A stretch of 31,678 nt of DNA, taken from positions 1 to 31,678 of IMG/VR virus record IMGVR_UViG_3300014882_000002. One strand, given 5' to 3'. Origin of the DNA: a virus. Both the position numbers and the translations under genes were made by a program. Below, one piece after another: positions 17,146 to 21,897 of the stretch; the first letter of the stretch is position 1, and the number at the start of each line of letters is the position of its first letter. The notes beneath the pieces were generated by a model. It was given only the letters and a program-made list of their open reading frames with translations. It made no database searches and had not been told where the DNA came from.

Positions 17146-17463
17146 GTGGACGACGATCTGAAAAAGTGCGAACACCCCCGCACACTGCGAAAGGTGCTGG
17201 AGGAGCACGACCAAATGAAACGAACCCTTTATCAATCTGGCCAGGACGACCAGGGGTGGCCGCACACCGAACGGAGAACCCATGGAGGACTTTCAGACGA
17301 GCAAGTCGACGAAATCAAAGAAGCCATCCTCGCTTCAATTTATGAGGACATTGGCCGATCGATTGTTAAAAAGATTCTTTGGGCGGGTGGGGCGGTGCTC
17401 GCTGCGCTGTTTGCTTGGCTGGTCGCCAAAGGATACATCCCGATAGGACAGCTAAAGCCATGA
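17146..17463 (+). CDS. Small C-terminally anchored membrane protein, candidate holin or lysis regulator
   Basis: This 105-residue protein begins at GTG 17146 after a strong AGGAGG. Residues 1-72 are hydrophilic and helical (LRKVLEEHDQMKRTLYQSGQ; DEQVDEIKEAILASI). One membrane segment follows at about 76-95 (ILWAGGAVLAALFAWLVA), with a short tail. It ends in ATGA with the endolysin gene. That position, directly before the endolysin, is where a holin or holin-associated protein is expected, and single-span holins exist. The long hydrophilic N-terminus with a C-terminal span is also like XhlA-type lysis proteins. The holin call is from context only. Confidence 0.6.
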   Translation: MDDDLKKCEHPRTLRKVLEEHDQMKRTLYQSGQDDQGWPHTERRTHGGLSDEQVDEIKEAILASIYEDIGRSIVKKILWAGGAVLAALFAWLVAKGYIPIGQLKP

Positions 17464-17939
17464 ACTTCGACATCGCATTCGACCGGCTGATGGGGCACGA
17501 GGGCGGCTACGTCGACGATCCCAACGATCCTGGCGGCGAGACCAAGTGGGGCATATCGAAGCGGTCCTATCCTGATATCGACGTCAAGAACTTGACCAGA
17601 CTCGACGCCAAGGAAATCTACCGGCGCGACTTCTGGACCCGCATCCATGCCGACGAGATGTATGACGGTGTGGCGTTCCAGGCGCTCGACTTTGCGATTA
17701 ACAGCGGTATCGGGACAGCGGTACGCAAGCTCCAGGCCGCAGTGGGTGTGGCGGACGACGGGTACTGGGGGCCGGTGACGAAGGCCGCCGTCGCCGCGAT
17801 GAGCGAGTCCGACATCATCATGCGCTTCACCGCGGAGAGGTTGGACTTCTGGACGCGGCTCTCGACGTGGCAATCATTCGGCAAGGGATGGGCGCGACGG
17901 GCAGCGCAGAATCTTCGCTACGGAGCGCAGGACTCGTGA
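17460..17939 (+). CDS. Endolysin, GH108 (ZliS-type) N-acetylmuramidase
   Basis: This 159-residue protein carries the GH108 fold: FDIAFDRLMGHEGGYVDDP at the N-terminus with the catalytic Glu at residue 14 in HEGGY, then DPGGETKWGIS (24-33), IYRRDFWTRI (53-62) and AFQALDFAINSGIGTAVRKL (72-91). The last part matches the usual peptidoglycan-binding 3 domain (AVGVADDGYWGPVTKAAVAA). It hydrolyses the glycan strand of murein to end infection. There is no signal peptide or SAR helix, so it needs a holin to reach the periplasm. It overlaps the membrane-protein gene by 4 nt and the next gene by GTGA. Confidence 0.9.
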   Translation: MNFDIAFDRLMGHEGGYVDDPNDPGGETKWGISKRSYPDIDVKNLTRLDAKEIYRRDFWTRIHADEMYDGVAFQALDFAINSGIGTAVRKLQAAVGVADDGYWGPVTKAAVAAMSESDIIMRFTAERLDFWTRLSTWQSFGKGWARRAAQNLRYGAQDS

Positions 17940-18316
17940 ATCGGCCATCGCTTCAGCGCTCGAAGCCCATCGCGCTGCCAATCGCAGTGGCCTTGATCGC
18001 GGGCGCCTGCACGATGATCGACTACAGCACCAAGCCATCGGAAGATTTCCCCAAACTCGAAATCCAGATCGTGGACATGAGTGTGTGGGAGGTTGCGGCC
18101 AAGTGCGGCGGCATTCCAATCATCTACCACGTATTCGCCTGCGTGTTCACGGACTTCGATGAAGTTTTCAACACCAACGTCTGCACGATATACACCCACT
18201 CACGAGCCGAATGGCTCATCGAACACGAAACTGCCCATTGCAAAGGCTACGATCACATCGGATCGTCTGAGTTGCGCGAGGCGTGGGAAGCCTGGAAGCG
18301 GAAGCTTGGCCGGTGA
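17936..18316 (+). CDS. Small HExxHxxGxxH putative metallopeptidase with lipoprotein-like N-terminus
   Basis: This 126-residue protein starts at GTG 17936, in a GTGA overlap with the endolysin stop. The N-terminus is basic then hydrophobic (RSKPIALPIAVALIAGAC, Cys25), resembling a lipoprotein signal, though the residues before Cys are not a classic lipobox. Residues 97-107 read HETAHCKGYDH, an exact HExxHxxGxxH zinc-binding pattern (H97, E98, H101, H107). The C-terminus is a charged helix (SELREAWEAWKRKLGR). It would act in the periplasm or at the envelope. I know of no lysis protein of this type, so the role could be lysis, peptide trimming or superinfection exclusion. Catalysis is predicted from the motif alone. 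Confidence 0.7.
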   Translation: MNRPSLQRSKPIALPIAVALIAGACTMIDYSTKPSEDFPKLEIQIVDMSVWEVAAKCGGIPIIYHVFACVFTDFDEVFNTNVCTIYTHSRAEWLIEHETAHCKGYDHIGSSELREAWEAWKRKLGR

Positions 18317-18726
18317 GCGACCAGATCAAATACCGAGAGGGTTACAAGTACCAGCTCGCCGAGAACTACGGGGTGGCGACGGAGTTGCGCCCGCCGAAGC
18401 CCATCCGCACGCCCTACATATGGCTATCGCTGGACGGAGTGCTCACGGTGCGCAAGGGCTACGCCTGGGACGGCCCGAGTGGGCCGGCGATCGATACCAA
18501 GAATTTTATGCGCGGGTCGCTGGTGCACGACGCGCTCTACCAGTTCCTGCGCGAAGGGAAGTTGCCCCAAGCGCATCGGGAGACCGCAGACCGCCTCCTG
18601 CAGGCAATCTGCATCGAAGACGGCATGACAGCGTTGCGCTCCTGGTGGGTCTACCAGGGCGTGAGGTTCGGCGGCGGCCCGGCGGCAGATCCTGACAACG
18701 ACAACCCCATCCTCATCGCCCCATAG
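18313..18726 (+). CDS. DUF1353-family phage protein
   Basis: This 137-residue protein starts at GTG 18313 in a GTGA overlap. It shows the DUF1353 pattern: a strand-rich first half (YIWLSLDGVLTVRKGYAWDG), the PSGPAID turn, and then the helix LVHDALYQFLREG (about 77-89) with a conserved His-Asp, and HRETADRLLQAICIEDGM. DUF1353 genes are common near phage lysis and tail genes, but their function is unknown; some may be enzymes of envelope or nucleotide metabolism, which I cannot test here. Context keeps it in the lysis cassette. The C-terminal end (ADPDNDNPILIAP) is a short acidic tail. Confidence 0.75.
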   Translation: MSDQIKYREGYKYQLAENYGVATELRPPKPIRTPYIWLSLDGVLTVRKGYAWDGPSGPAIDTKNFMRGSLVHDALYQFLREGKLPQAHRETADRLLQAICIEDGMTALRSWWVYQGVRFGGGPAADPDNDNPILIAP

Positions 18727-18734
18727 GAGGCACC

Positions 18735-18902
18735 ATGCGACTCGCGCTAATCCTCGTCTTATCGCTGATCACCGGCTGCACCGGGCTCGTCGGCTACGCG
18801 CCGAGCGTGTTTCCGAGCCTGGAATACTGCGATTCTGTCGTGTACGTAAGGAAGGGCAACCAGGTGGACGTGCAGGCCCAATGTCGAGCTCCGGTGAAGT
18901 AA
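18735..18902 (+). CDS. Small lipoprotein, candidate o-spanin (Rz1-like)
   Basis: A 55-residue frame follows a strong AGGAGG (18725-18730), with ATG 18735. Residues 1-15 are a lipoprotein signal (MRLALILVLSLITGC, lipobox ITGC, Cys15). The mature part has about 40 residues with Cys32 and Cys50. Size, lipobox and place at the end of the lysis cassette fit an outer-membrane spanin subunit. It is not very proline-rich, unlike typical Rz1, and I find no separate inner-membrane spanin gene upstream or overlapping. A phage-encoded envelope lipoprotein with another role is the alternative. Confidence 0.65.
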   Translation: MRLALILVLSLITGCTGLVGYAPSVFPSLEYCDSVVYVRKGNQVDVQAQCRAPVK

Positions 18903-20850: not shown

Positions 20851-20861
20851 CCGTGGACGGG

Positions 20862-20920
20862 GGGACTCAAAATCCCGCGGTCGCGAGATCGTAAGGGTTC
20901 GACTCCCTTTCCCGGCACCA
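20862..20920 (+). other. Likely attP core: 3' part of tRNA-Leu(CAA)
   Basis: From about 20862 the sequence reads as the 3' portion of a bacterial tRNA-Leu: anticodon loop CTCAAAA (20866-20872, anticodon CAA), a Leu-type long variable arm (about 20878-20892), a T arm with GGGTTCGACTCCC (20894-20906), and a 3' acceptor strand TCCCGGC, A, CCA ending at 20920. No matching 5' acceptor GCCGGGA or D arm lies upstream at the right distance, and the base at 20861 breaks the anticodon stem, so the match should begin about 20862. The integrase gene lies just downstream. This is the standard layout of an attP that restores a host tRNA on integration. Confidence 0.8.
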
Positions 20921-20949
20921 TAGACAAATCAGCTACTTAGCGCCACCGG

Positions 20950-21897
20950 TTATTTCTTCCGCGCCCCGCGCCTGCCCCGCAGGCTTAATCCCTGCACCGC
21001 CTGCCACAGATCACGTCGCCCGAGGTGCGCGTACCGGGACGTGACGGCCAGGCTGGAATGCCCGAGCAGGTCCCGCACGGCAGTAGGCATGGCGCCGCCC
21101 TGGATCAACCAAGAGGCATACGTGTGTCGTAAATCGTGGTAGCGCACCCCGGACAGCCCGGCCCGTGCTCTGGCGGCCTCGTAGCCATTCCTGAGCTCGT
21201 CCCGGGTGATACCGTGGGGGAAACGCTTGGGGTCGAGTTCCGGGGGTAACGGGATGATCCGCGGCCGGCCGGATTTGCTGGTCGACAGCACAATCGCCCC
21301 ATCCCGAAAGCTCTCTGGCGTCACGGCCAGCAGCTCGCCCCGCCTCAATCCAGTCAGCAGCGTCCAGCGTATTGCCTCCCGGGCCCGGCCTCGTGCCGCG
21401 GCGATCAGCCGGCGAGCCTGTGGGAGAGTCAGATAGACGTGCCGCTGTGTCTCCCCCGGTAACATGGTGACCCTGCCAGCGAGATCCTGATCGAGCCAGC
21501 CCCACACCCTGAAAGCCAGCCTGGCAACCCGGCGCAGGATCGCCAGCCTGCGATTGAGTGTGGCCGGTTTCAGCCCCTCCCCCGCCCGCTTGATCGACTC
21601 CGCGGCCTCCCCGACGTCGACCAGCATGCGCCCCTGAATGTGCGGGTAGATCACCCGCGTTTTTTCCAGCAGGTTGTCGTAGGAGCGCAGCCCCTTGGCT
21701 TCCCCGGTCAGCCAACGGTTGACGGCTTCCGTGAGCGAGTAGCGCGGGCTTCGGCCAACTCGACTATCCGTGATCCTTGATCGGTAGCGGGCCTCCCACT
21801 CCTGGGCATCACGCTTAGACGCAAAAGTTTTGCCAAATCGTCGGCCGGCAAACTGCACGCGGGCCTCCCATCCTTCGCCGTGGCGACGTACTGGCAT
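20950..21897 (-). CDS. int: Tyrosine-type site-specific integrase
   Basis: This 315-residue protein has a full tyrosine-recombinase active site: Arg185 (TGLRRGEL), Lys208 (STSKSGRPR), His254 and Arg257 (YHDLRHTYASWL), His280 (LLGHSS) and Tyr289 (SRYAHL). The N-terminus (HGEGWEARVQFAGRRFGKTF) is an arm-binding-type domain, followed by a core-binding helical domain (about 55-150). The gene's 3' end points to the attP core 29 bp away. The start region overlaps the excisionase frame by 190 bp. It catalyses phage integration at the tRNA-Leu site. Confidence 0.93.
   Translation of the reverse strand: MPVRRHGEGWEARVQFAGRRFGKTFASKRDAQEWEARYRSRITDSRVGRSPRYSLTEAVNRWLTGEAKGLRSYDNLLEKTRVIYPHIQGRMLVDVGEAAESIKRAGEGLKPATLNRRLAILRRVARLAFRVWGWLDQDLAGRVTMLPGETQRHVYLTLPQARRLIAAARGRAREAIRWTLLTGLRRGELLAVTPESFRDGAIVLSTSKSGRPRIIPLPPELDPKRFPHGITRDELRNGYEAARARAGLSGVRYHDLRHTYASWLIQGGAMPTAVRDLLGHSSLAVTSRYAHLGRRDLWQAVQGLSLRGRRGARKK

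Follow-up and report, generated by a model that had tools for sequence, protein, structure and literature searches.

In Listeria prophages, a secreted metzincin (Mtz) and a TIMP-like lipoprotein (Tim) are encoded downstream of the holin-lysin genes (PMC8235301). Mtz-Tim raises sensitivity to phage lysis, and this effect depends on the activity of Mtz (PMC8235301). The C-terminal domain of VgrG2b in P. aeruginosa is a small HExxH domain, the toxicity of which needs the periplasm together with the Glu and His of HExxH (PMC6899460); in the periplasm, it wrecks cell morphology via these residues (PMC6899460). Here, we describe P0001, a lipoprotein-like phage protein with an HExxHxxGxDH motif that is encoded directly after an endolysin gene. 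The first-pass annotation of this DNA held that known lysis functions include no protease of such a sort, which is too strong a statement in light of the Mtz-Tim precedent (PMC8235301).

The stretch analyzed comprises 31,678 nt (IMGVR_UViG_3300014882_000002, positions 1-31,678) and is referred to as a whole as the window. It is a fragment of a temperate phage, carrying head and tail genes as well as a tyrosine integrase, on which the assignment as temperate is based. The genes relevant to P0001 are as follows:

17146..17463, plus strand: 105-aa protein that resembles holin/XhlA in architecture alone, having a single membrane segment at the C-terminus (PF23987 weakly matched, E 0.012)
17460..17939, plus strand: GH108 endolysin (PF05838, 2.7e-25; phrog_315 endolysin, 5e-52)
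17936..18316, plus strand: P0001, 126-aa lipoprotein-like protein with HExxHxxGxDH (translated from GTG; N-terminus in agreement with relatives)
18313..18726, plus strand: DUF1353 protein (PF07087, 3e-5; phrog_1158, 4e-21)
18735..18902, plus strand: 55-aa small lipoprotein with lipobox ITGC and two further cysteines (71% in the syntenic phage L003)
18881..19099, plus strand: 72-aa protein with which the conserved block closes (50% in L003)
20950..21897, minus strand: tyrosine integrase (phrog_1, 1.3e-45)

Beside the integrase, positions 20855-20921 resemble the 3' part of a tRNA-Leu (from the CAA anticodon loop to CCGGCACCA); this segment, not called by ARAGORN, is probably the phage attachment site.

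The GTG start of P0001 at 17936 lies inside the endolysin stop, with the four bases GTGA (17936-17939) shared by both genes, and the 3' end is a second GTGA (18313-18316) at the start of the DUF1353 gene, again a 4-base overlap. The GTG start is backed by the relatives, in which MNRRQQQSKP corresponds to VNRPSLQRSKP in the window protein. The earlier description of a 126-residue protein overlapping a GH108 endolysin and preceding DUF1353 is thus borne out by the overlaps on both sides and by the PF05838 and PF07087 matches. Given these exact 4-base overlaps in a late lysis operon, P0001 is probably made with the endolysin, the two being translated together.

In L003, the closest syntenic contig examined, the endolysin (75%), DUF1353 protein (70%), 55-aa lipoprotein and 72-aa protein are kept in the same order, and DUF1353 directly follows the endolysin, with the P0001 gene absent. 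Since L003 has the endolysin-DUF1353-lipoprotein series without it, the P0001 gene appears to be cargo that is either there or missing as a clean unit. At 56.7%, its GC content is below that of the neighboring genes (62.1% and 64.0%) and falls within the lowest 5% of 380-base windows in the late region; this fits a cargo gene, as weak evidence. The window endolysin resembles that of Bordetella phage BPP-1 (48.5%), where no HExxHxxGxxH gene was found beside the endolysin, the flanking genes being bbp3 and bbp1. No family match was obtained for the 55-aa lipoprotein, and no i-spanin partner was recognized near it. On a further contig, L030, DUF1353 is directly followed by a small HExxH protein of another kind (HELIH; 2458-2784), which has no signal peptide.

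Searched alone, P0001 gave no significant match in Pfam, PHROGs, NCBIfam, PDB, IMG/VR, GenBank phages, plasmids, or genome contigs (profile and BLAST searches). A family was uncovered by a degenerate HExxHCxGxDH pattern in IMG/VR, after which all ORFs were read. It includes proteins of 90-145 aa that are 22-39% identical, from ~20 distinct phage loci, together with six copies in betaproteobacterial genomes. Since the motif was the criterion by which the IMG/VR set was picked, finding it conserved there is no evidence. Similarity between the window protein and the motif-selected set in phmmer (E down to 4e-28) spans the entire protein (WPxL, C, AC, CxIY, the motif, and a WK tail), beyond the motif alone. 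A second scan without the Cys requirement revealed no family member lacking that Cys, and a search by peptides from the non-motif part returned eight contigs, each of them previously known and carrying the motif. With no motif filter, an HMM search of bacterial genomes recovered six strong members (L163-L168), and the HExxHxxGxDH residues are intact in five of these. Poor conservation of the motif had been named in advance as a ground for giving up the first reading; the relatives keep it, including those found by the whole-protein HMM.

Family members are rare, occurring in 4 of 98 genomes of one betaproteobacterial family, and members at E<=1e-4, weaker hits included, occur in 5 of 399 genomes of its order. 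Searches for phage kin via DUF1353 and the endolysin showed synteny and no further P0001 family member, and GenBank phages yielded no match to the relatives L069, L078, and L079 as queries. Only one PHROG, phrog_27783 (88 aa), matches members along the full length, weakly (L054, 4e-5; L068, 1e-3); judging from these matches it is likely a branch of the P0001 family, although it has no match to the window protein itself. Its profile found nothing in the 98 betaproteobacterial-family genomes, nor in controls, and that search is uninformative. In Pseudomonas phage Dobby, L054 had a weak hit that was rejected, since it is a frame of a tail protein and lacks the motif; also rejected were Streptomyces proteins (L109-L113) that have HExxHCxGYDH in common and lack the remainder of the family features.

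Among the bacterial members, L165 and L167 have extra CxxC/CTC cysteines and lie near response-regulator or sigma-54-type genes, perhaps as a domesticated branch. Two betaproteobacterial small lipoproteins (L169, L170) with a longer or altered motif spacing (HExxHCxxGxFH) form a possible sister family. Larger phage matrixin-like proteins (L040, L090, L091, L050, L058, L097) were also found; they carry HExxHCxGLDH and a Met-turn-like SIM/IM, and the Cys upstream is invariant in them. Some of them are lipoprotein-like or membrane-anchored.

In several phages, the family member adjoins lysis genes: a phrog_7 endolysin and an Rz-like spanin in L079, a phrog_181 endolysin and an Rz-like spanin in L045, and a phrog_3427 holin and a phrog_894 endolysin in L081. 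With the GH108 endolysin of the window, four endolysin types are therefore found next to members. Other members are located amid early or replication genes or near tail genes, and some are in bacterial contigs without obvious phage genes. The association with lysis genes is thus recurrent across unrelated endolysin types, yet not general, and the function need not be lysis, since many members come from early or unrelated regions, and some from bacterial contigs. P0001 was also considered as a spanin (Rz/Rz1) and rejected, as it has no PHROG match and the weak phrog_812 match of its relative L039 is at the N-terminus only.

Within the P0001 gene, an alignment of 27 members and the translation define the following features:

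17936..18010, plus strand: predicted lipoprotein signal peptide with lipobox AGAC (residues 22-25); C25, codon 18008-18010, would be lipidated (from the sequence; C25 aligned with Cys in 26/27)
18104..18142, plus strand: C57 (18104-18106) and C69 (18140-18142), Cys pair invariant in 27/27 (alignment; putative disulfide)
18182..18241, plus strand: C83 (18182-18184) and C102 (18239-18241), Cys pair lost jointly in L165 and L167 (alignment; putative disulfide from the last strand to the active-site helix)
18224..18256, plus strand: zinc-type motif HETAHCKGYDH, with H97, E98, H101, G104, D106, and H107 (translation and codon-pattern scan)

A single site in the window (18224-18256) fits the codon pattern for HExxHxxGxxH, and none of 100 dinucleotide shuffles contains one, which argues that the motif is not due to chance. 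The exact extended zinc motif noted earlier (H97, E98, H101, H107) accordingly stands, at residues 97-107. Residues 1-25 (VNRPSLQRSKPIALPIAVALIAGAC) read as a lipoprotein-type signal, with a basic n-region, a hydrophobic core, and AGAC, and P0001 thus has both the predicted signal peptide and the lipobox Cys of bacterial lipoproteins. What had been called an exported-looking N-terminus can be sharpened to that of a lipoprotein by this lipobox and its aligned Cys. Two relatives (L047 and L076) have AxA-type signal peptides instead of the lipobox. The lipobox, the signal peptides, and the paired cysteines all agree in pointing to P0001 as an exported protein.

Residues C57, C69, E98, H101, G104, D106, and H107 are invariant in all 27 members, H97 is kept in 26, and C83 and C102 are kept in 25. 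L166 has Glu at the position of the first His, and L165 and L167 have HG in place of HC. The last two are the members without both C83 and C102; this joint loss suggests a C83-C102 disulfide and an oxidizing compartment, with the two proteins being close relatives, so that the loss may be one event. If C83 pairs with C102, a C57-C69 disulfide would follow by exclusion. Among the phage ORFs collected for their HExxHxxGxDH, 39 of 60 HC ORFs also have a Cys on the strand before the motif, vs. 1 of 30 non-HC ORFs (Fisher p 4e-9, with rows that are related rather than independent and a first scan that had selected HC). Purifying selection acts on close family members (dN/dS 0.09-0.15).

Given the family alignment, AlphaFold2 produced a confident, compact model (pLDDT 87 for the full length and 90 for the mature protein; pTM 0.76 and 0.81), the core order of which is plausible for a metzincin catalytic domain. 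From the N-terminal side, it comprises strand 42-47, helix 50-57, strand 68-73, strand 82-87, helix 92-102, a turn at G104, H107, and helix 112-123. H97, E98, and H101 lie on predicted helix 92-102, which ends just before G104, and the model has the broad zincin-like features of an HExxH helix after a small sheet and a conserved Glu. A fold search of the PDB returned nothing at E<=0.001, with snake-venom metzincins/adamalysins appearing only at E ~3-4 (adamalysin II at E 4.1, TM 0.35), and a search of BFVD returned three uncharacterized proteins of uncultured phages (probability 0.87-1.00). The active-site segment aligned by hhalign with phage matrixin-like proteins over 31 columns (probability 75%), a higher probability than for YbeY. 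No Met follows H107 in P0001, and none is conserved there across the family. Three relatives (L045, L053, L068) end 3-7 residues past the third His, so that hardly any C-terminal subdomain is left from which a substrate cleft could form. The initial designation as a putative metalloprotease is therefore supported by the conserved motif and the confident predicted fold, and weakened by the lack of a significant structure match, the lack of a Met-turn, and the members ending near the third His; P0001 should be called a reduced zincin-like protein and not a proven metzincin. That the family is exported and zincin-like is highly probable, and that it is an active metallohydrolase is somewhat favored.

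In our proposal, P0001 would be an exported, lipid-anchored, disulfide-stapled minimal zincin of ~100 mature residues, in which a strand, a helix, and two further strands are followed by the active-site helix and then a short C-terminal one. The zinc would be bound by H97, H101, and H107, and E98 would act as the general base, making a metallohydrolase, probably a peptidase, the most likely identity. The invariance of E98 in 27/27 members favors catalysis, and predicted export and lipidation would place the protein on the periplasmic side. As accessory cargo of a temperate phage, sited in its late lysis operon and presumably produced with the endolysin, it might cleave one or more envelope proteins late in infection and thereby render lysis faster or more complete, comparable to the boosting of phage lysins by Mtz-Tim. 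This best explanation, taken as a whole (a lipid-anchored minimal zincin serving as an accessory envelope peptidase that aids lysis), stands at about an even chance. By analogy, a lysis role for P0001 is plausible but tentative and less likely than not, and the nearest syntenic lysis operon (L003), which does without the gene, counts against it. Rather unlikely is the wider proposal that an outer-membrane-anchored mini-zincin is a new lysis accessory of Gram-negative phages, gained repeatedly by unrelated phages and cutting, e.g., outer-membrane-to-peptidoglycan tethers as the endolysin acts.

Other explanations were weighed against the envelope peptidase. P0001 might instead serve in lysogenic conversion or superinfection exclusion, as a lipoprotein produced in the lysogen or at an early stage of infection and located in the outer membrane, where it would clip or occlude the receptor or DNA-entry machinery of incoming phages. 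Small outer-membrane lipoproteins with a superinfection-exclusion role are known (Cor and Llp), the phage is temperate by its integrase, and several relatives (L042, L051, L056, L069, L078, L085, L088) are in early regions, where HTH regulators or replication genes accompany them. However, the window gene is inside a late lysis operon with 0 sigma-70-like promoter hits, there is no PADLOC match, and the match to Cor (phrog_1119) was rejected because it covers only the signal peptide (residues 1-21), so we consider exclusion improbable. To a similar degree, we doubt that P0001 is a non-proteolytic zinc or structural lipoprotein, one that would retain its fold and metal site in order to be stable or to bind, with no peptidase activity. 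The nearly absent C-terminal subdomain, the three members ending just after the third His, and the lack of a significant match to known peptidases would all suit such a protein, but the invariant E98 would be hard to explain without catalysis. In HExxH enzymes, this Glu is the catalytic base, not a metal ligand.

It is very improbable that P0001 is a secreted metal hydrolase resembling YbeY, with nucleic acid rather than protein as its substrate (e.g., incoming phage DNA or RNA). There is a weak profile likeness over HxxxHxxGYDH (PF02130, E 0.14; TIGR00043, E 0.11; hhalign probability 23% for the active-site segment), but the match covers 22 columns only, YbeY proteins are cytoplasmic and have HG, not HE, at the first ligand, and the P0001 family is predicted to be exported and is Cys-paired. 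Membership in YbeY was rejected given the HE, the lipobox, and the sub-threshold scores. We therefore prefer an accessory, lysis-aiding envelope metalloprotease, in view of the invariant Glu, the predicted export, the probable co-translation with the endolysin, and the Mtz-Tim and VgrG2b precedents. Whatever the activity, the family is a coherent set of phage and bacterial lipoproteins without a Pfam or NCBIfam match, with E98 and the putative disulfides as testable residues.

Compared with known systems, P0001 resembles YbeY (PF02130) in having HxxxHxxGYDH near the C-terminus, whereas YbeY is a cytoplasmic endoribonuclease with HG rather than HE at the first ligand, and essentially one helix is aligned. 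Metzincins (astacin, matrixin, adamalysin, snapalysin) share HExxHxxGxxH and a helix ending just before the Gly, and the active-site profile is similar to that of phage matrixin-like proteins; P0001 differs in having no Met-turn, almost no C-terminal subdomain, and no significant fold match. VgrG2b, likened here by description and not by sequence comparison, is a T6SS effector domain fused to VgrG, with an immunity protein. Mtz-Tim is closest in setting, as a phage-borne exported HExxHxxGxxH protein coded beside holin-lysin genes, although Mtz is Gram-positive, with a Sec/SPI signal, a Met-turn, and a separate lipoprotein substrate, whereas in P0001, likened by description and not by homology, the zinc-motif protein is itself the predicted lipoprotein and lacks a Met-turn. 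If active, P0001 would be among the smallest zinc peptidases and would be a phage lysis component outside the holin/endolysin/spanin scheme; lysis by Gram-negative phages would then include envelope proteolysis as an optional module, in line with what Mtz-Tim suggests for Gram-positives.
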